DNA of 57,801 nt from a virus, in the IMG/VR virus record IMGVR_UViG_3300032080_000129, positions 1-57,801 of that record; one strand, written 5' to 3'. The notes below the pieces were generated by a model that saw only the letters and a list, made by a program, of their open reading frames with translations, had not been told where the DNA came from and did no database searches. Within the stretch, counting starts at the first letter, position 1, and every line of letters begins with the position of its first letter. The position numbers and the translations under genes are program-made. This document shows positions 1 through 56,715 of this stretch, in pieces.

Positions 1-1287
1 CTATCGGGTTGCGCGGACGGTCTTCACTCGTTCGGCGAGGAACGAGTCGAGCTGCTCGCGCGCGCGATCCATCTCGCCCGCGAGGACGTGGGTGTAGCGA
101 TTCAGGGTGATCGCAGCCGCGCCTCGCTGGCGCTCCGGAGTGGAGTGCCCCATCCACTCGCTCGCCACCTTCGGGCTCACTCCGGCATGGTCGAGCCAGG
201 TGGCGCAGGTGTGCCGACACTCCTGGAGGTTGATCGGCACCAGAAGCTCAGGCCGGCGCTCTTGCTTGCGAGCGGTCTTCCTCTCGTCGGAGTTGACCTC
301 CTCCCAGGCTTCGCGGCAGCGCCGCAGATAAGGACCGGTAGCCATCTCGCCTGACCGAGAAGCACGCAGCGGCGGACAAACTTTGCCGGCGGTCGGTCGC
401 CCCTGCCGGAGGCGAGCCGTGCGGAGGATGATCAGCAATGGTCGGACGATGGGAACAACGCGCGTCGCTGCCTCCGACTTGCCGCCGCCGGCCGCCTTGT
501 CAGCGAGCAGAAGCAAGCGCTTGTCGAGATCGACCTCCGCCCAGGTCAATCGACGGATCTCCGCTGCCCGGGCAGAGGCGTAGGCAGCCAACGCGAGGGG
601 AACCTGGTCGGCGTCGTCAAGAGCCTTCAGCAGCCCTCTTAGCTCTCCGGGCGTCGCCACCCGATCTCGCGGGGTCGAGTCGTTAGCCGGCAACTGGACA
701 TGGGCGCCGGGGTCGGCCGTGGTGAACTCCCGCTGGCGCGCCCACCGATAGAGACTGTTTAGTGCGTAGACCCGTGAGCGGATCCGCGACGCCGAGATCA
801 TCCCCAGCCATTCGTCGACCGCGTGCTGAACGTCGCCGCCGCCGACGTCGTCCAGCCGCCGGTTTGACCACTCATCCGGGAGATGACCCAGCGTCAGACG
901 GAGATCCGCCGCGGCCTCATCGCGATAGGGCATCCCCTTCTTAGTCAGGGCCGTGCCATCGGTGACGGCGACCCTGAACCTCTCGATCGCCGTCTCAAGG
1001 CGCATTGAGGAGGTTCCAACCGGCCGCCCCATGCGGAGAGAGGCAGCTAGATCGGCCCGAGCGTTGCGCGCCTCGACGGCTTTGGGATGGTGCTGCGTCT
1101 TCCGGGTTCGCTTGAAGCGCTTGTCGTAGACGACGCCGAAGTAGGAGGGCCTGCAGTCACACCGGCCATCCCTCCGGCCTTCGCTAAGCGCGACGCTCAG
1201 CGCGCAGCCTTCGCGATGCCTGGCGTAGACCCCTTGGAACTTCGTCTTCGTGTCTCGGCCGGCCACCTTCACGCGGCAGCCTGACAC
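1..1287 (-). CDS. int: Tyrosine recombinase (phage integrase)
   Basis: Site-specific integrase of 428 residues starting at GTG. The N-terminal part has a CDC motif (residues 43-45) and a basic FGVVYDKRFKRTRKT arm-binding-like stretch; residues 95-200 look like a SAM-like core-binding domain; the catalytic domain follows. Visible active-site residues are R240 (ARAAEIRRLTW), R358 (QECRHT), H381 (WMGHS) and Y398 (LNRYTH). In family terms the HxxR histidine position is Q355, which is unusual. The gene overlaps the upstream excisionase-like gene by 19 bp, as expected for a co-transcribed int/xis pair at the end of the early operon. The stop codon is the first codon of the window, so attP/attL would lie just outside. 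Confidence 0.95.
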   Translation of the reverse strand: MSGCRVKVAGRDTKTKFQGVYARHREGCALSVALSEGRRDGRCDCRPSYFGVVYDKRFKRTRKTQHHPKAVEARNARADLAASLRMGRPVGTSSMRLETAIERFRVAVTDGTALTKKGMPYRDEAAADLRLTLGHLPDEWSNRRLDDVGGGDVQHAVDEWLGMISASRIRSRVYALNSLYRWARQREFTTADPGAHVQLPANDSTPRDRVATPGELRGLLKALDDADQVPLALAAYASARAAEIRRLTWAEVDLDKRLLLLADKAAGGGKSEAATRVVPIVRPLLIILRTARLRQGRPTAGKVCPPLRASRSGEMATGPYLRRCREAWEEVNSDERKTARKQERRPELLVPINLQECRHTCATWLDHAGVSPKVASEWMGHSTPERQRGAAAITLNRYTHVLAGEMDRAREQLDSFLAERVKTVRATR

Positions 1288-12380: not shown

Positions 12381-13184
12381 TCACCGTCCCCCGCTTGCAG
12401 TCGTCGCCAAAGGCGGCATCTCGTCATAGGTGCGGCCGTCGAGCAGGCGCCCGTTGGACTCAGGGCGGGGTCCACCGTTCTGCTTGTGGAAGAAGGCGAC
12501 GCCTTCGACCGCGCACTCGCCGCGAAGGTCGGCGGCCCACGCGGGATCGAAGGAACGGTGGCCAGGGCCGGACTCCCCGCCCGTGATCAGCCAGTCGATA
12601 TCGGTGAGGTCGAGTTGGCGGCCCTCGTAGCCGTCCCGCCATTGGCCACCCGGCGCATCGCAGACCAGCGGACCCAACAGCGACTCGGCCGAGATGAATC
12701 GAACCGCCGCCGGCACTTTGCGAAGCAGATCGGCCCGGTACACCCACCGATGAGTCTCAACGGTCACGCCCAACCAGACGTTCGGATACCCGTCGCCCCA
12801 GTCGGCGGGAAGCCTGGTCGGAATCAGGCGGGGGCGCTTGGTGAGGATCTGGTAGGTCGACTCCGGCGTTTCGCGGATGACTCTCCACGCCTCGTCGCGC
12901 CACTCGTCGGCCGCCGGGTGAAACCAGTCAGACCAGGAGCAGGTGAAGACGAGGTGGCGCCCGCGCTCAGCGATTGCCGCATCGCGCTCGCGCTTCCAGG
13001 AAGTCTTCCGCAGGGGCGCGTAGAAGGTGGCGTCAGCGCAGCGCTGCACGACTTCGGGGTCACGCCCGTAGCGGCGCTGATCCCGGAACATGTAGCACTC
13101 GTCGCAGCCCTCGCTGACTTTGTCGCAGCCTCGCCAGGGGTTCCAGGTCGAGTCGGTCCACTCGATGACCGAGCGCTCGCCCAT
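12381..13184 (-). CDS. Phage Gp37/Gp68 family protein (DUF5131), 267 aa
   Basis: IEWTDSTWNPWRGCDKVSEG followed by CDECY is the family signature; downstream come HLVFTCSWSDWFH, TKRP and WLITGGESG, also characteristic. The Cys pattern C-x6-GC-x2-CY is suggestive of a metal or radical SAM-like site, but the activity of the family is not established. Such genes are frequent in phages of actinobacteria and proteobacteria. It overlaps its upstream neighbour (TGATG). Confidence 0.88.
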   Translation of the reverse strand: MGERSVIEWTDSTWNPWRGCDKVSEGCDECYMFRDQRRYGRDPEVVQRCADATFYAPLRKTSWKRERDAAIAERGRHLVFTCSWSDWFHPAADEWRDEAWRVIRETPESTYQILTKRPRLIPTRLPADWGDGYPNVWLGVTVETHRWVYRADLLRKVPAAVRFISAESLLGPLVCDAPGGQWRDGYEGRQLDLTDIDWLITGGESGPGHRSFDPAWAADLRGECAVEGVAFFHKQNGGPRPESNGRLLDGRTYDEMPPLATTASGGR

Positions 13185-14445: not shown

Positions 14446-14921
14446 TCGACTCCCCCGGTGTCCGGAATGGAGAAGTCAGGATGCTGGGAGGCCATGTGGC
14501 GCCGCACGTTTTTGAAGCTGCGATTGCAGCAAGGGCAGACGCCAGCCTTGATGCGCTTGAGAATCCGATCACGTTCGTTCCGGGCGCGAGTGGCCGCGGC
14601 CTTCTGCGCCCTCCGGCTTGCCTCGCTCTGATCAAGCTGGGCGGTGAGCCTGGCGCTTCTATCCCGCTGAGCCTCCAGGCGCAGACGAAGATCCTGCTCC
14701 TCGCTTAGACCCGAGTAGCGCCAGGAGTGTCCGAAGGGACAGCAAACTTCCCAGTGCTTGCCGGGGTGAGCGGCGCTGTTGTACTCCTGGGCCGACTCGT
14801 TGAAGGACTTCGGGATGGCGTAGGTGACGTGGCACGTCGGGCACTCGACTACATCCAGGGTCGTGGATGCGCTGAAACGCTTTCCCTCGGCTGCGCTGTA
14901 GATCGTCCTCGAAGCGGCCAT
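14442..14921 (-). CDS. Zinc-finger hypothetical protein, 159 aa
   Basis: VECPTCHVTYAIP plus CCPFGHSWRYSG form an N-terminal zinc site, a coiled coil (LRLRLEAQRDRSARLTAQLD) follows, and the C terminus CPCCNRSFKNVRRHMASQHP is a C2H2-type finger. This three-part plan is known from actinophage hypothetical proteins. It probably binds DNA or RNA. ATG at 14921 overlaps the RNA ligase stop. Confidence 0.75.
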   Translation of the reverse strand: MAASRTIYSAAEGKRFSASTTLDVVECPTCHVTYAIPKSFNESAQEYNSAAHPGKHWEVCCPFGHSWRYSGLSEEQDLRLRLEAQRDRSARLTAQLDQSEASRRAQKAAATRARNERDRILKRIKAGVCPCCNRSFKNVRRHMASQHPDFSIPDTGGVE

Positions 14922-15961
14922 TACGCCACGACCTCGGTGTTCCAGATGGTGTCCGGCGTCGTCGGCTCAGGCTTGATCGCTTTCCAGATCAGATCCTCGT
15001 AGGGCTTGCCATCGAGCATCCGGAAGAGGACGGCGGTGTTGCCCCCGCACCGCTTGAAGTATTCGGCAATCTCGCGCCGGTCGTCCGTCGGCGGCTTCCC
15101 CTCAAAGAGCGCCTGAGCGGCGGCGACCTGCGCCCGGAATTCGTCGCGTAGAGAGGCGGTGGTCGAGTCGACCCAGGCGAAGATCTCGTCAGGGATTCCG
15201 TCCAGTTCGCTGACCGGATCCTGACCAGCGGCAAGTGCCTCCCAGATACGGCGGGCATTGATCCCGGTGACAATTCGATGCAGCCGGACGTACTCGGCGT
15301 GCTTGATCTTCACTCGCAACCCGGAGGTGAAGGTGACCACGTACCCCTCACAGTTGGGGCGGTCTTGGTCAACGAGTTCCTCGAAGCCGAGGTAGTGGCG
15401 CTCCGCCTTCTCCCCTGGCCAAGCACCGTGCATGTGCGGGCGGTCTTCAGCAGTCAGGTTGTCGAGCACTGCCAGGAGGACGAGTTTTCGGTCGCCGCCG
15501 TAATCGACGACGATCCGGTTAGCCGGGTAGACGATCTCGAAGAGGGCGGTTTCGCCGCGGTGCCAGGCAGCGCCGTGTTCGTGAAGGATGCGCGTCCCTT
15601 CGATTGCCTGCTCGCTGGTGAAGCTCCCACGGGTGGCGAGCCGCCATTCGTCGCCCAGCGGGTAGGCAATCCCGAGGGAGCCATCGACCTTCTCGGCGAC
15701 AGTGAACGTCCCCAATTCCGAGGTGTTCAGATCCGGGAGTTCGTGCAGGTTGAAGAACTTCGGGAACGGGCGAGCAACTACGGCTCCCTCGACATCAAGG
15801 ATCAGGCCTCGACACGCGAGCGTCTCTGGAGTCCAGTGCTTCTCGAACTGGGTTCGCTCCGTGTAGTTGTAGATCCACAGGTCGGCCTCGGGGTGGCGCT
15901 GACTTCGCAGCCATCCCTCGGCGACCAGCGCGTCTAGGCGCTCGCGGTCGAACTTGTTCAC
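14921..15961 (-). CDS. RNA ligase, T4 Rnl1-like, 346 aa
   Basis: Nucleotidyltransferase ligase motifs are in order: AEKVDGSLG at 89-97 (K91 as the adenylated lysine of KxDGS), LATRGSF near 108 (motif Ia-like), LFEIVYP at 140-146 (motif III), EGYVVTF at 205-211 (motif IV), and VKIK at 217-220 (motif V). A C-terminal helical extension follows, as in T4 RNA ligase 1. It should seal 3'-OH/5'-phosphate RNA breaks, the classic role being repair of tRNA cut by host defence. No polynucleotide kinase partner is visible in the window. Confidence 0.9.
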   Translation of the reverse strand: MNKFDRERLDALVAEGWLRSQRHPEADLWIYNYTERTQFEKHWTPETLACRGLILDVEGAVVARPFPKFFNLHELPDLNTSELGTFTVAEKVDGSLGIAYPLGDEWRLATRGSFTSEQAIEGTRILHEHGAAWHRGETALFEIVYPANRIVVDYGGDRKLVLLAVLDNLTAEDRPHMHGAWPGEKAERHYLGFEELVDQDRPNCEGYVVTFTSGLRVKIKHAEYVRLHRIVTGINARRIWEALAAGQDPVSELDGIPDEIFAWVDSTTASLRDEFRAQVAAAQALFEGKPPTDDRREIAEYFKRCGGNTAVLFRMLDGKPYEDLIWKAIKPEPTTPDTIWNTEVVA

Positions 15962-31161: not shown

Positions 31162-32415
31162 ATGACCCAACCTTTGGGAAAGAACCCGTTTCGACCCGGT
31201 GTCGGCACCCGCCCCCTCCATTTGGCGGGTCGCGATCAATCGATGCGGAGGTTCCGCTCCATGCTTCGGGCCGCGCCAGAGCAGCCAGCAAACATGCGGC
31301 TGACCGGACTTCGCGGGGTGGGTAAGACCGTCCTTCTGGGCGAGTTCCAGTCGATCGCGGAGAGCAACGACTGGGCGAGCGCCGTCTTGGAGTTCCAGCC
31401 CGGCCACAACCGGGAGGATCAGATGGTGAGCGCCCTCCTGAACATTGCGCAGGATTCGAAGATGCGGCTCTCGCGGATTGAGCGAATCAAGAAAGCCATC
31501 GGGGGCGCTGTTCGCAATGCGGGAACCCTCGGCATGGGGTGGGAAGAATTCCAGGTCACCTACGACCCGATGGTCGAACAGCAGCGAGAGGACATAACCA
31601 AAGCACTCTTTGAAGTGGTGGAGATGGCAGTGCAGAAAGGACGGACCGGGTTCGTCCTTCTGCTCGATGAGGCGCAGGTAATCCGCGACGAGACCAAACG
31701 CGAGGGCGAGCACCCCCTCTCCCTGTTGATCTCGTCAATCGTCGCATTGCAGCGCCGGGAGATTCCTCTCGGTCTTGTCCTGTGCGGACTGCCGACCTTG
31801 ACCGGCAACCTGCTCAAGGCCCGCTCCTACACCGAGCGGATGTTCCGGGGCGAGGAGATCGGTTCCCTTGAGGAGGGAGACGCGAGGGAAGCGTTTGACA
31901 AGCCGCTGGCAGAGGCAGGGGGACACGTCACCGCTGATAAGGACCTCATCAGCCGCGTCGTTGATGAGGTTGAAGGCTACCCCTACTTCATCCAGCTTTG
32001 GGGCGCTGAGCTTTGGGACGCAGCCGAGATCGCGGAGGTCGATCACCTCTCGACCCGTTTGCTGGATGTGGCGCGACCCGAAATCTACAGCCGTCTCGAC
32101 CTTGACTTCTACAACCCGCGCGTTGAAACCCTGACCCCCGCAGAGCAGGACGTTCTACTGGGAACGGCCGATGCGGACTATCCGCCCTTGGTGGTCTCAA
32201 AACTCAACGACGCGATCAACAAGACGCCTACCAACGTCAACGTCCTTCTTGGGCGGCTGGTGGACGCAGGGGTTCTGTATCGACTCCGCAAAGGCGAGTA
32301 CGACTACACCGCTCCTAGGTTCCGCGACTACTTGGTGCGCCGCACTCGTTCTGCTCGCGCCAAAGAAGCGACCCGCAGCGACACGCCTGCGGGCATCGAA
32401 CAGACGCTTTTCTAG
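31162..32415 (+). CDS. AAA+ ATPase of AAA_16/archaeal-ATPase style with C-terminal winged helix, 417 aa
   Basis: The N-terminal NPFRPGVGTRPLHLAGRD start is that of a widespread actinobacterial AAA family. Walker A GLRGVGKT at 49-56, Walker B FVLLLDEAQ at 164-172; sensor-type LVLCGLPTL near 210 follows. The C terminus (LTPAEQDVLL ... NVNVLLGRLVDAGVLYRLRK) is a winged helix ending in a basic tail. The gene has its own promoter region and sits alone in a tail operon, the pattern of a moron. It could be a defence or superinfection-exclusion ATPase, or a DNA-handling factor; no partner is visible. Confidence 0.8.
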   Translation: MTQPLGKNPFRPGVGTRPLHLAGRDQSMRRFRSMLRAAPEQPANMRLTGLRGVGKTVLLGEFQSIAESNDWASAVLEFQPGHNREDQMVSALLNIAQDSKMRLSRIERIKKAIGGAVRNAGTLGMGWEEFQVTYDPMVEQQREDITKALFEVVEMAVQKGRTGFVLLLDEAQVIRDETKREGEHPLSLLISSIVALQRREIPLGLVLCGLPTLTGNLLKARSYTERMFRGEEIGSLEEGDAREAFDKPLAEAGGHVTADKDLISRVVDEVEGYPYFIQLWGAELWDAAEIAEVDHLSTRLLDVARPEIYSRLDLDFYNPRVETLTPAEQDVLLGTADADYPPLVVSKLNDAINKTPTNVNVLLGRLVDAGVLYRLRKGEYDYTAPRFRDYLVRRTRSARAKEATRSDTPAGIEQTLF

Positions 32416-47653: not shown

Positions 47654-48124
47654 TCGGATACGACGAGCTCTCCGCACTTGCGGGTGCCTCCTTGGGCATA
47701 GCGGCCACCCCGCCCTTGCGGGGAGCCTGTATCGAAGAGGTGCGGGCAGGCAGCGGGTGCGCGCCGCGCCTGCTGGGTGAGCAGGGGCTCCCATCAGCCT
47801 GCGCTCCCATCAGCCTGCCCTGTGGAGTGGGGCATCTGTCATCGCCCGGGAGATGCTGGTCTTCCCCTCCGGCGCCTCTACAGCGCCAGCGGAGCGACAG
47901 GGACTCGAACCCCGAAGGCGACTGACGCCGCCCTACGCGCTTAGCGGGCGCGCTCCTCGTCCTGCCGGACTCGCTCCGTGAAGATCAGATCGGTTCGGCC
48001 CGGTGAGGGCTCCGAGACGAGCGGCTGATCAGGCACAGGAAGTTCGAGGCTGACCGGCCCCGCGAAGACCGGCGACGTTTTCGCGCCAGCCGTGTACGGA
48101 CTCCGTGAATGGTGACAAGGTGCT
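47654..48124. other. 470-bp gap with tRNA-like and short open frames
   Basis: No clear gene. A GTG frame at 47941-48036 (31 codons, ending GRTDLIFTERVRQDEERAR) looks protein-like but lacks a ribosome binding site. A tRNA-like stem-loop lies at 47891-47956. The 48.06-48.12 kb part contains a frame continuing from the upstream gene that reads like protein (AKTSPVFAGPVSLELPVPDQ), hinting at a decayed small gene. No promoter seen. Confidence 0.4.
47891..47956 (-). other. Degenerate tRNA-like sequence
   Basis: Read on the minus strand it has an acceptor stem GGAGCG/CGCTCC, a T arm CGGGG-TTCGAGT-CCCTG and a partial D arm, but only 66 nt, with no room for a normal anticodon arm. It is not counted as a functional tRNA. 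It may be a decayed tRNA or a tRNA-mimic in the intergenic gap. Confidence 0.4.
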
Positions 48125-51608: not shown

Positions 51609-53189
51609 TCAGCGCCAGGGGTGGTTCTTGGTTCCGGATGCGGGGCCGGGGGCGTTGGCGAGCCAGGTCATCGCTTGGCTCATCGCGTCAACCTGGTCGT
51701 CGTGAGCGCCGTTGTCGAAGATCGCGTGCTCGGAGATGAACTCGCCAACGCTGGTCTGCTCGTAGCCCAGGGGGGCCGGGATGAACTCGCCTTCGGGTAG
51801 GTAGACGTTTCCGGCCTCCACGATCGGTTCAGCGGCCGAGGCTCGCACCGTCTTGCCTCCTTCGGGCGGGACAGGCAGCATGCCGGGAATCTCGGCCTTC
51901 AAGGTGTTGATCACCGCCGGCCCGTTGGCCTTGTCCTCTACGAGCTTGGCCGAGGCGGGTTTCCACTGCTGGAGTGCCCTGACAGCCGCCAGGGACTCGG
52001 TGAAGCTCAGCCGTTTACGGATCTGGCCGAGGAGGAAGCGGTTGGCGCCATGGGCTCCCCAGACCTGACCAACGACGTAGCTAGACGCCTCGGTCTGGCT
52101 GTCTGAGAACCGCATGTCCCACGAGTGGATCACGCGGTCGAAGGGTGGAAGCGTTTCCCAGCGCTTCCACCAGTAGCGCTTGAACATCCCGCCCTCCAAG
52201 GGAGCGGGACGCTGCTGCATTTGGCCGGCGTAGCCGTAGCTGCCCAATCCCTTTGCCAGCTCGGCCAGCCGCTCGGGCGAAAGGCGTACCGGCTCCAGCA
52301 ACTCGTCCTCCTCGGTGCGAGGATCGCCGGGGAGTTCGCGGCCAGGCTTCACCACCACCTTGGGTTTGCCGTCCACCTCCTCAACCACCTCGCGATCGGG
52401 CAGCCGTACATGGTCGGGGTAGGTGAACGGATGGCCAGGCTCGTACTCGGCGGGAAGGCAGAGGTGGTGCCAACCGCCCTGGGCGAGCAGGTGGCCGGTC
52501 AGATCCTCCTCGTGTAGGCGCTGCATTACGATCACGCCTGCCGCCTCGGCGTTGTTGAAGCGGGTGGTCATCGTCTCGTCCCACCATTTGTTCGCGGCTA
52601 GGCGCTCAGCGTCGGAGCGGGCCTGCTTCGCGTTCAGCGGGTCGTCGATGACGATGCGATCGCCGCCCTCACCGGTCGCGATCCCTCCCACCGAGGTGGC
52701 AAGCCGCATCCCGGTCAGCGTCGTCTCGTACTTCTCCTTGGCGTTCTGGTCGCCGGTCAGCTCCCAGGGGTCCTCAGAGAGCAGGGAGAGCAGCCCCTGG
52801 TAGCCGACGCGCTCAAAAAGCGTGCCCTCTTCCCTTGCGCCTTGTGACTGAATCAGGCGCCGGCAGCGAACGGAGTCACGAAGGCTGAGGCTCTGCGCGT
52901 AGGTGGCGAAAAGCCAGCGCAGGTGCCCGGCGTCGAGCCATTCCCAGCAGGGCCAGAACACCGCGGTGGTCAGGCTCTTCATCGTCCTCGGAGGAACGTT
53001 GACGATCAGCCGACGCAGTTCCCCGCGCCCTACTGCTTCAAGGTGCTCGGCCAGCACGTCGATGTGCCAGCCGTGGATGAAGGGCGTGGCGGGCTCGACT
53101 ACCGGCCAAGCCTCACGGATGAAGGTCGAGAGGCGGCGCCGGCAGCGCTCGGCGGTTAGTTCATCGCGAGACGGAAGCCGGGTGAGCAC
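51609..53189 (-). CDS. terL: Terminase large subunit, 526 aa
   Basis: FIHGWHIDVLAEHLEAV then LIVNVPPRTMKSLT is the ATPase Walker A (residues 62-74); RIVIDDPLNAKQARSDAE gives the Walker B / C-motif region, MTTRFNNAEAAGVIVMQRLH the coupling motif, and VEDKANGPAVINTLKAEIPG with DQVDAMSQAMTWL the C-terminal nuclease landmarks (D residues near 410 and 500). It packages DNA into the capsid. Preceded by the small subunit gene. Complete. Confidence 0.93.
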   Translation of the reverse strand: MLTRLPSRDELTAERCRRRLSTFIREAWPVVEPATPFIHGWHIDVLAEHLEAVGRGELRRLIVNVPPRTMKSLTTAVFWPCWEWLDAGHLRWLFATYAQSLSLRDSVRCRRLIQSQGAREEGTLFERVGYQGLLSLLSEDPWELTGDQNAKEKYETTLTGMRLATSVGGIATGEGGDRIVIDDPLNAKQARSDAERLAANKWWDETMTTRFNNAEAAGVIVMQRLHEEDLTGHLLAQGGWHHLCLPAEYEPGHPFTYPDHVRLPDREVVEEVDGKPKVVVKPGRELPGDPRTEEDELLEPVRLSPERLAELAKGLGSYGYAGQMQQRPAPLEGGMFKRYWWKRWETLPPFDRVIHSWDMRFSDSQTEASSYVVGQVWGAHGANRFLLGQIRKRLSFTESLAAVRALQQWKPASAKLVEDKANGPAVINTLKAEIPGMLPVPPEGGKTVRASAAEPIVEAGNVYLPEGEFIPAPLGYEQTSVGEFISEHAIFDNGAHDDQVDAMSQAMTWLANAPGPASGTKNHPWR

Positions 53190-53195
53190 ACGCGC

Positions 53196-53765
53196 TCAGG
53201 CCTCCTCAAGCTTCGCTGCGATCCGCTCCAGCGCATCCAGCTCGTTGTCGTCCAGCTTTTCGAGGTCAACCTTGACCCGCTTCTCGATCTTGCCCGAGTG
53301 GTTGACATCGACTCGATCGCGGTACTTCTCCGGGCGCCGGGACTTCAGCATGAACTCCAGGAGGCGGTCGCTGTAGCTCTGCACATCCGTGACGTGTTTC
53401 CCCGCCGAGACCAACGGGGTCGTCACACCCTCAACCGCGCGACGATAGGCCTCACGCTCCATCGCCTCGGTCGATTCCTCCTCAGCGTCGGCCCAAGCCA
53501 GTGCGAAGTCCTCATTCCGCTGCCGCTCGGCGTAGACGGTATTGCGCGAGATCCCCATCAGTTCGCAGGCGGTCGAGACCATCCCGCACCAGCGGAAGGT
53601 GTCCAGCCACTGCTCGCGAGACCAGCGCTCATCACGCGGGCGCGTTGCAGTGTCCTGAGCGTCATCGTGTGGATGGCGCCCGCAGCGATCGCTTCCCCTC
53701 TTCGGGAACGCCGTGCAGGGCTTGCCGTCCTGGCGCTTTCCGGTGCACCGCTTCGGCTCGCTCAC
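53196..53765 (-). CDS. terS: Terminase small subunit, 189 aa
   Basis: N-terminal RCTGKRQDGKPCTAFPKRGS with CGRH is a zinc-like motif; then an HTH (WCGMVSTACELMGISRNTVY) and helices for oligomerisation (DFALAWADAEEESTEAMERE), ending with a coiled tail. The order DNA-binding then central helices is that of TerS. It lies directly before TerL (6 bp). Confidence 0.8.
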   Translation of the reverse strand: MSEPKRCTGKRQDGKPCTAFPKRGSDRCGRHPHDDAQDTATRPRDERWSREQWLDTFRWCGMVSTACELMGISRNTVYAERQRNEDFALAWADAEEESTEAMEREAYRRAVEGVTTPLVSAGKHVTDVQSYSDRLLEFMLKSRRPEKYRDRVDVNHSGKIEKRVKVDLEKLDDNELDALERIAAKLEEA

Positions 53766-54583: not shown

Positions 54584-54657
54584 TGGCGGGGGCCAGATTT
54601 GAACTGGCGACCTCAGCGACATGAGCGCTGCGAGCTACCTGGCTGCTCTACCCCGCG
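54584..54657 (-). tRNA. tRNA-Met (CAT), initiator-like
   Basis: A 74-nt cloverleaf: acceptor CGCGGGG/CCCCGCC with a C1.C72 mismatch at the first pair (the mismatch at this position is the hallmark of bacterial initiator tRNA), D region AGAGCAGCCAGGTAGCTCG as in fMet tRNA, anticodon arm CAGCG-CTCATGT-CGCTG, T arm GCCAG-TTCAAAT-CTGGC, discriminator A. It differs from host-type initiator in that the three G-C pairs expected in the anticodon stem (GGG/CCC) are not there. CCA is not encoded. It lies between regulators and the late operon, in antisense to nothing. Confidence 0.85.
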
Positions 54658-54763
54658 GTGAAGACTCCCGACGCCCGTCCCTCTGACAGGAAAGCGCCGG
54701 GGGTGGATAGCGGTGAGTCGCAAGGGCGGGCAGGGGGTCGCCTTCGCGGTCTGAGCTATCCGT

Positions 54764-55006
54764 GTGAGGGTGCCTCTAGCCGAGCGGGCTGCGAGGCGTG
54801 ATCGTCTGCGGGCGCACGTGTCCCACCTCGATCAGGGGCTGATACTACACGTCAGCCACGGACGGATCTTCTTCGTCGGGGAAAATCGGGTAGTGGGTCA
54901 GTTTGAACCGCGGGGCTCGCAGGAGGCGCCAGAATGCCCCAGGCCGATAGAGAACTCGGCAACTATGTATCCAGAGCACGTAGGGCCAGGCAGCGCTGAC
55001 GCCTGA
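54764..55006 (+). CDS. Possible rightward small protein, 80 aa
   Basis: GTG frame with a protein-like centre (HLDQGLILHVSHGRIFFVGE then NRVVGQFEP) but no ribosome binding site and a weak C terminus. It may be a shadow. It is next to the tRNA and convergent to the wHTH gene. Low confidence. Confidence 0.35.
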   Translation: MRVPLAERAARRDRLRAHVSHLDQGLILHVSHGRIFFVGENRVVGQFEPRGSQEAPECPRPIENSATMYPEHVGPGSADA

Positions 55007-56038: not shown

Positions 56039-56575
56039 CTAGGCGAGGGAGCGCTCGCGTGCCATCTCTACGCCCCATTCAATGTCTTCGAGTGAGGGCG
56101 GCTCTTGCGAGATGAACACCGAGTGATACGGGATCTCCTCGCCCTCTACGGTCAGTTCGTAACCGGGGAAGGCGTGGGAGAGATTGCGGAGGTCCGTCGC
56201 GTCTTCATCCCAATGCTTCTGGATGACTTCATCGACAAGGGCCAGTTGATCGCTGGTCATCCAGTCGATCTGGGCCTTGCGCTTGGCGACGATCCTCCTC
56301 TGTCTGTACATGTACCTGCCGACCTCTTGAATCTCGATTGATCCCGAGTCCTTGAGGTCGCGCTCAGCGAGCAACTGCTCATCGGCGAGCGGCCCGTGAG
56401 GCTTCTTTCGGTAGCACGCGCCAGTGATTGACTCGCCGAACTCGGCATGGGCGCCGAAGTCGCTGAGGAACAGCAACTTGGCGAGCTTGACGCGCCCGAA
56501 ACGGGGATCGTCGCTCGACCTCTCAGCGAGGTAGAGGATCAACTCCCGCGTCTTCTGTATGGATTCTTTAGTCAT
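56039..56575 (-). CDS. SocA/Panacea-type antitoxin domain protein, 178 aa
   Basis: ATG at 56575 (MTKESIQKTRELILYLAERS) after GGGGG. RFGRVKLAKLLFLSDFGAHA then ITGACYRKKPHGPLADEQLL is the Panacea (SocA, DUF4065) pattern (KLxKLLFLxD ... YxxxPxGP). Families with this domain neutralise many unrelated toxins. The neighbour on the other strand is a DUF3800 fragment, a type of partner gene seen in defence loci. It probably belongs to an accessory TA-like module. Confidence 0.75.
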   Translation of the reverse strand: MTKESIQKTRELILYLAERSSDDPRFGRVKLAKLLFLSDFGAHAEFGESITGACYRKKPHGPLADEQLLAERDLKDSGSIEIQEVGRYMYRQRRIVAKRKAQIDWMTSDQLALVDEVIQKHWDEDATDLRNLSHAFPGYELTVEGEEIPYHSVFISQEPPSLEDIEWGVEMARERSLA

Positions 56576-56715
56576 TAAACCCCCACATCTGGATCTTTTG
56601 TTTTGTACCACACTGATGCTAGCGGACACTGCGGGCGGGCTTAGCAAAGATCCCGCTTGACGCAGGAGGCATTTCTCGCGGCGCCGCCGATGCCGTCCGA
56701 AGGCGTGAGTACAAC

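Follow-up and report, generated by a model that had tools for sequence, protein, structure and literature searches.

A phage-encoded initiator-type tRNA-Met with an M1-type anticodon stem and an altered anticodon loop, possibly tolerant of anticodon nucleases

Introduction

Why would a phage carry an initiator tRNA that departs from the bacterial one in the very stem by which initiators are selected? The three G:C pairs of the anticodon stem are described as strongly conserved and as a central element in the selection of initiators (PMC7949028). Exchange of the middle pair, G30-C40 to C30-G40, gives M1, a standard laboratory mutant of tRNAfMet, which supports 20-fold less translation in E. coli (PMC11497404). 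In M1, A1339 and G1338 of the 16S rRNA make weaker contacts to the anticodon stem and the discrimination against CUG is lost; C30:G40 is the pair found in elongator tRNA-Met (PMC11497404). The window analysed here is the whole IMG/VR virus record IMGVR_UViG_3300032080_000129 (57,801 bases, classed as linear), and the phage that it represents carries a natural version of this mutant. Initiator tRNAs encoded by phages have been described before, as have phage tRNAs with an altered loop; no report of a natural, recurrent and virus-borne M1-type initiator was found in the mostly non-subscription literature searched.

Identity and structure of the tRNA-Met gene

ARAGORN and the Rfam tRNA model (55.6 bits, E-value 2.5e-9) delimit with identical bounds an initiator-type tRNA-Met(CAU) at positions 54584..54657 on the minus strand, upstream of the terminase genes. 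The gene reads CGCGGGG TA GAGC AGCCAGGTA GCTC G CAGCG CTCATGT CGCTG AGGTC GCCAG TTCAAAT CTGGC CCCCGCC A and encodes no CCA. The minimum-energy fold is the full cloverleaf, with the CAU anticodon in its loop. In this fold C1 is opposite C72 with no Watson-Crick pair, as in initiators, and the remaining six acceptor pairs, the D stem, the anticodon stem and the T stem are all perfect (0 of 20 pairs broken; folding z of -2.3). The initiator marks A11:U24, G2:C71 and C3:G70 are present, together with A73 and an initiator-type D arm. An identity as elongator tRNA-Met or tRNA-Ile2 was considered and is ruled out by the C1xC72 mismatch and by the G10 A11 G12 D arm.

The initial annotation had reported the position of this tRNA, the C1.C72 mismatch, the fMet-type D arm, the CAT anticodon, the stem CAGCG/CGCTG and the loop CTCATGT, and each of these bases is confirmed. 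Its statement that the GGG/CCC stem had been lost goes too far: of the three G:C pairs, G29:C41 and G31:C39 persist, and the exchange concerns the middle one alone, from G30:C40 to C30:G40. The tRNA therefore lacks the complete G29:C41, G30:C40, G31:C39 set of initiators and corresponds to the definition of M1, with C30:G40 between two conserved pairs in an initiator body. Likewise, the description of one end of the molecule as having elongator features holds for C30:G40, which is the elongator pair (PMC11497404), but is overstated for a molecule whose D arm, 1x72 mismatch and two of three G:C pairs are of the initiator type. The anticodon loop consists of C32 U33 C34 A35 U36 G37 U38.

Conservation of the gene in a related phage

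The window displays the gene set of a tailed temperate phage: a tyrosine integrase lies at the left end (1..1287, minus strand) and the gene of a repressor-like protein at the right end, and genes for portal, capsid, tape measure and terminase are present as well. The record is linear and viral and contains no host junction. No near DNA match to the window was found among phages. Relatives of the integrase and of an RNA ligase point weakly to actinobacteriophages, and those of the terminase and capsid proteins have mixed affiliations.

The closest viral relative found is IMGVR_UViG_3300044468_000011 (59,275 bases), whose terminase large subunit is 71.7% identical to that of the window (51609..53189, minus strand). 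This gene and the terminase small subunit (53196..53765, minus strand), downstream of the tRNA-Met, were used as synteny anchors. The search for the tRNA in related phages that had been proposed with the initial annotation was successful, since the relative has an initiator-type tRNA in the syntenic place, upstream of its terminase genes. The initial claim of a phage-borne, initiator-like tRNA with a changed anticodon stem-loop is supported. Eleven positions separate the two tRNAs, and no pair is broken: the pairs 28:42, 30:40 and 52:62 are compensated and the remaining changes fall in loops and at position 72. The probability that 11 random changes leave every pair of the tRNA-Met unbroken is 0.002. 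Both phages keep the 1x72 mismatch (C x C in the window, C x U in the relative), and G37 is common to both. The anticodon stem of the relative has the canonical GGG/CCC (G29 G30 G31 : C39 C40 C41), from which the window differs there only at the middle pair, so that the G:C signature is altered and not removed. The synteny, the 11 differences without a broken pair, the retained mismatch and the shared G37 indicate that the tRNA-Met is a maintained gene.

The gene is preceded by a conserved non-coding 5' flank (54658..54866, minus strand) of about 200 bp, the last 60 bp or so being nearly invariant between two phages that are otherwise diverged, and the upstream gene content of the two phages changes at this flank. 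It matches no Rfam family, contains no consensus promoter and folds no better than shuffled sequences; when the element was searched elsewhere, only the relative was recovered. It could be a promoter, a cos site or a recombination site.

The conservation of the tRNA-Met and of its flank speaks against the idea that the gene is decaying or belongs to a host whose sequence was caught at a prophage border. These readings would account for a stem-loop that departs from the bacterial consensus and for record termini that coincide with gene boundaries. We give them a very small probability, as the pairing is unbroken, the changes relative to the orthologue are compensatory, the folding z is negative, and the gene is surrounded by phage genes and has a syntenic counterpart in another virus. 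Moreover, the initial annotation would have taken an identical sequence, as the only initiator tRNA of the host genome, as the sign of a host gene; in the bacterial genomes searched, the matches to an exact pattern with this D arm and a base other than A37 include no complete tRNA with the loop CTCATGT.

A role in lysogeny, also suggested at the outset in the form of an attachment-site copy, can be considered on the same grounds. The tRNA could be such a copy or could replace a host initiator disrupted on integration, and tRNA-dependent lysogeny does exist in actinobacteriophages (PMC10865867), with which our phage shares a temperate gene set, a tyrosine integrase and a tRNA of its own. In contrast to that system, the tRNA-Met is located about 53 kb from the integrase, towards the opposite end of the record. 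A search of the window found no repeat that includes it, and no other evidence of attachment accompanies it. The relative, in whose record no tyrosine integrase was detected, keeps the tRNA, with the reservation that both are linear records from which sequence may be missing. This role appears highly improbable, and the attachment-site, host-gene and pseudogene readings are all disfavoured.

The M1-type stem in viruses and bacteria

A pattern scan of viral contigs recovered 28, besides the window, that contain the M1-type stem. In 27 of the 28, the stem belongs to a called tRNA with an initiator D arm, and the outer stem pairs vary and are mostly compensated. No M1-type stem was recovered from the 596 bacterial genomes sampled (0/396 Actinomycetota and 0/200 Pseudomonadota), a result that covers host initiators only in part, because the pattern demands an exact D-arm segment and a similar pattern matched 232 of 296 actinobacterial genomes. 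Position 30 is G in 187 of the 198 distinct viral initiators compared and another base in the other 11, and the pairs 29:41 and 31:39 vary widely among phage initiators. Most M1-type viral tRNAs have the normal loop CTCATAA, so that the altered stem and the altered loop do not form one coupled adaptation. It is rather doubtful that phages repeatedly evolve M1-type initiators as a selected adaptation of the ribosome grip, by which start sites would be shifted or recognition of the canonical stem escaped.

Changed start-site choice was evaluated separately. An M1-like tRNA might discriminate less between start codons and favour phage messages or non-canonical starts, considering that the window tRNA has the same C30:G40 as M1, with its lost CUG discrimination and its weaker contacts to A1339 and G1338 (PMC11497404). 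However, the recognisable starts of the genes common to the window and the relative are ordinary ATG, GTG or TTG codons, and no convincing case of a switch to CTG was found among these genes: the single gene with CTG at the position of the relative's ATG has a GTG two codons before it. Complexes with GUG and UUG are likewise less stable with M1, and many genes of the phage start with GTG. We regard this explanation as very unlikely.

The tRNA might also be a decoy or an inhibitor, that is, a formylatable and poorly initiating tRNA that sequesters IF2 or disturbs the maturation of host ribosomes. When all three pairs of tRNAfMet are replaced, the molecule is charged and formylated and binds IF2, and its overexpression disturbs ribosome biogenesis in E. 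coli (PMC10486304). Here one pair out of three is changed, the GGG/CCC of the relative is intact, and impaired initiation would harm the phage as well. We rate such a role as scarcely probable.

The anticodon loop in viruses and bacteria

Among the matches listed (roughly 150), nearly all actinobacterial initiators have the arrangement GGG-CTCATAA-CCC. In bacteria represented by one genome per species (about 85,000), 34 stretches combine the D arm of the window type with a base other than A at position 37, and about half of them are incomplete. Complete bacterial initiators with G37 or C37 amount to about 14 distinct sequences from these roughly 85,000 species; such bases are thus rare in bacteria and not restricted to phages. 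Bacterial genomes with complete initiator-type C37 or G37 tRNAs include that of Rheinheimera lutimaris, in which two C37 copies lie near each other.

Viruses were examined by targeted scans, whose counts are lower bounds for C32 initiators and are not frequencies; some viral contigs may contain host flanks. At least 20 contigs contain initiators with C32 and a base other than A37, most of them complete tRNAs. At least 105 stretches correspond to U32 initiators, most of which have loops other than UUCAUAA, mostly with C, U or G at position 38 or with an altered position 37. Concerning isolate phages, G37 is present in the mycobacteriophage Yucca (Bixzunavirus) and U38 in CN1A and Sixama; most of the other isolate-phage initiators have a normal loop but a stem other than GGG/CCC. 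Initiators altered at positions 32, 37 and 38 are therefore met repeatedly in phages; bacteria have them too, but rarely. The initiators of Yucca, Clavibacter phage CN1A, Gordonia phage Sixama and Streptomyces phage Wakanda resemble that of the window by their initiator D arm and by a non-consensus loop or stem, but among those compared none joins C30:G40 with G37 and U38. In Wakanda, Sixama and GodonK, a tRNA-Met of the elongator type is encoded next to one of the initiator type.

A nuclease-tolerant initiator or a drifting one

The explanation that we put first, at somewhat less than even chances, is that the tRNA-Met is a functional phage initiator altered to escape anticodon nucleases. The determinants of charging and formylation are retained (CAU anticodon, unpaired 1x72, A11:U24), and the tRNA, if expressed, would probably be formylated and used in initiation. 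Its stem-loop has diverged from the bacterial sequence where VapC-type nucleases cleave initiator tRNA, at 38/39. The VapC of enteric bacteria cleaves tRNAfMet between A38 and C39, and a leptospiral VapC likewise cuts tRNAfMet (PMC4105405). G37 and U38 are changed bases beside this known cut site, and changes in the anticodon loop of phage tRNAs have been predicted to evade VapC (PMC10264068). During infection of a host presumed to possess such a nuclease, the tRNA-Met would supply a start tRNA that is poorly recognised by it. The pair C30:G40, as in M1, would be expected to loosen the P-site grip, and the phage thus probably tolerates a less efficient initiation.

The window also encodes a T4 Rnl1-like RNA ligase (14921..15961, minus strand) with intact motifs, including KVDGS. 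Its orthologue in the relative is 60.5% identical and lies upstream of the fMet-type tRNA, with its end at a distance of 1.1 kb. Coliphage ligases repair tRNA-Lys after cleavage by PrrC, in work cited in PMC10264068, and the ligase of our phage could mend cut tRNAs in parallel. A polynucleotide kinase homologue, sought next to the RNA ligase as in Arthrobacter phage Bauer, was not found in the window. Finally, a tRNA-Ser(GCU) (47889..47977, minus strand) with a long variable arm, the loop CCGCTAA and an unusual D arm has C33 in place of the near-universal U33; it scores below the gathering threshold of the Rfam tRNA model in the window, and a near-identical copy is present in the relative. Taken together, the loop changes at the VapC site, the RNA ligase and the C33 tRNA-Ser(GCU) in both phages favour a role in the protection of translation, in which, judging from these sequences, the tRNA-Met may act as the nuclease-tolerant initiator. 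Counting against the nuclease reading are the existence of bacterial initiators with G37 or C37, the fact that Shigella phages generally avoid encoding tRNAfMet, the target of VapC there (PMC10264068), the uncoupled stem and loop changes, and the kinase homologue not found in the window. Of the three suggestions made in the initial annotation, resistance to tRNA-cutting defences has the best support.

Unconstrained drift is the main rival to nuclease escape. As the host supplies an efficient initiator, the stem and loop of a supplementary phage initiator could drift with pairing kept and with no nuclease involved. The wide variation at 29:41 and 31:39 beside a mostly kept G30, as well as the normal loop of most M1-type tRNAs, are consistent with such a relaxed constraint. 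It accounts less well for changes that keep recurring at the loop edges 32, 37 and 38, for the G37 that both phages keep despite 11 differences elsewhere in their tRNAs, and for the RNA ligase that the phage also carries. We consider drift possible and less probable than nuclease escape.

Comparison with characterized tRNAs

The tRNA-Met shares with the laboratory M1 (PMC11497404) the pair swap, the conserved G29:C41 and G31:C39, the CAU anticodon and an unpaired 1x72. It differs from M1 in being natural and phage-borne, in having G37 and U38 in addition, and in having C72 where M1 has A72. With the nuclease-evading phage tRNAs (PMC10264068) it has in common the changed bases 37-38 beside a known nuclease cut site; in contrast to these, among which tRNAfMet is generally avoided (the Shigella case), it is an initiator and its stem is changed too. 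For a natural M1-type phage tRNA, the orthologue with a normal stem constitutes a matched control with which to test directly how far the G:C signature is required in infected cells, and the two tRNAs allow one to ask whether nuclease escape drives change in this signature.

Three other genes of the window deserve mention. A SocA/Panacea-domain protein, antitoxin-like, is encoded near the right end (56039-56647, minus strand). A DUF5131 protein resembling those of radical-SAM mobile pairs (12381-13184, minus strand) matches the PADLOC candidate-defence models PDC-M41B and PDC-M30B. An AAA-ATPase gene (31162-32415, plus strand) adjoins the tail genes, among neighbours that are mostly on the minus strand.
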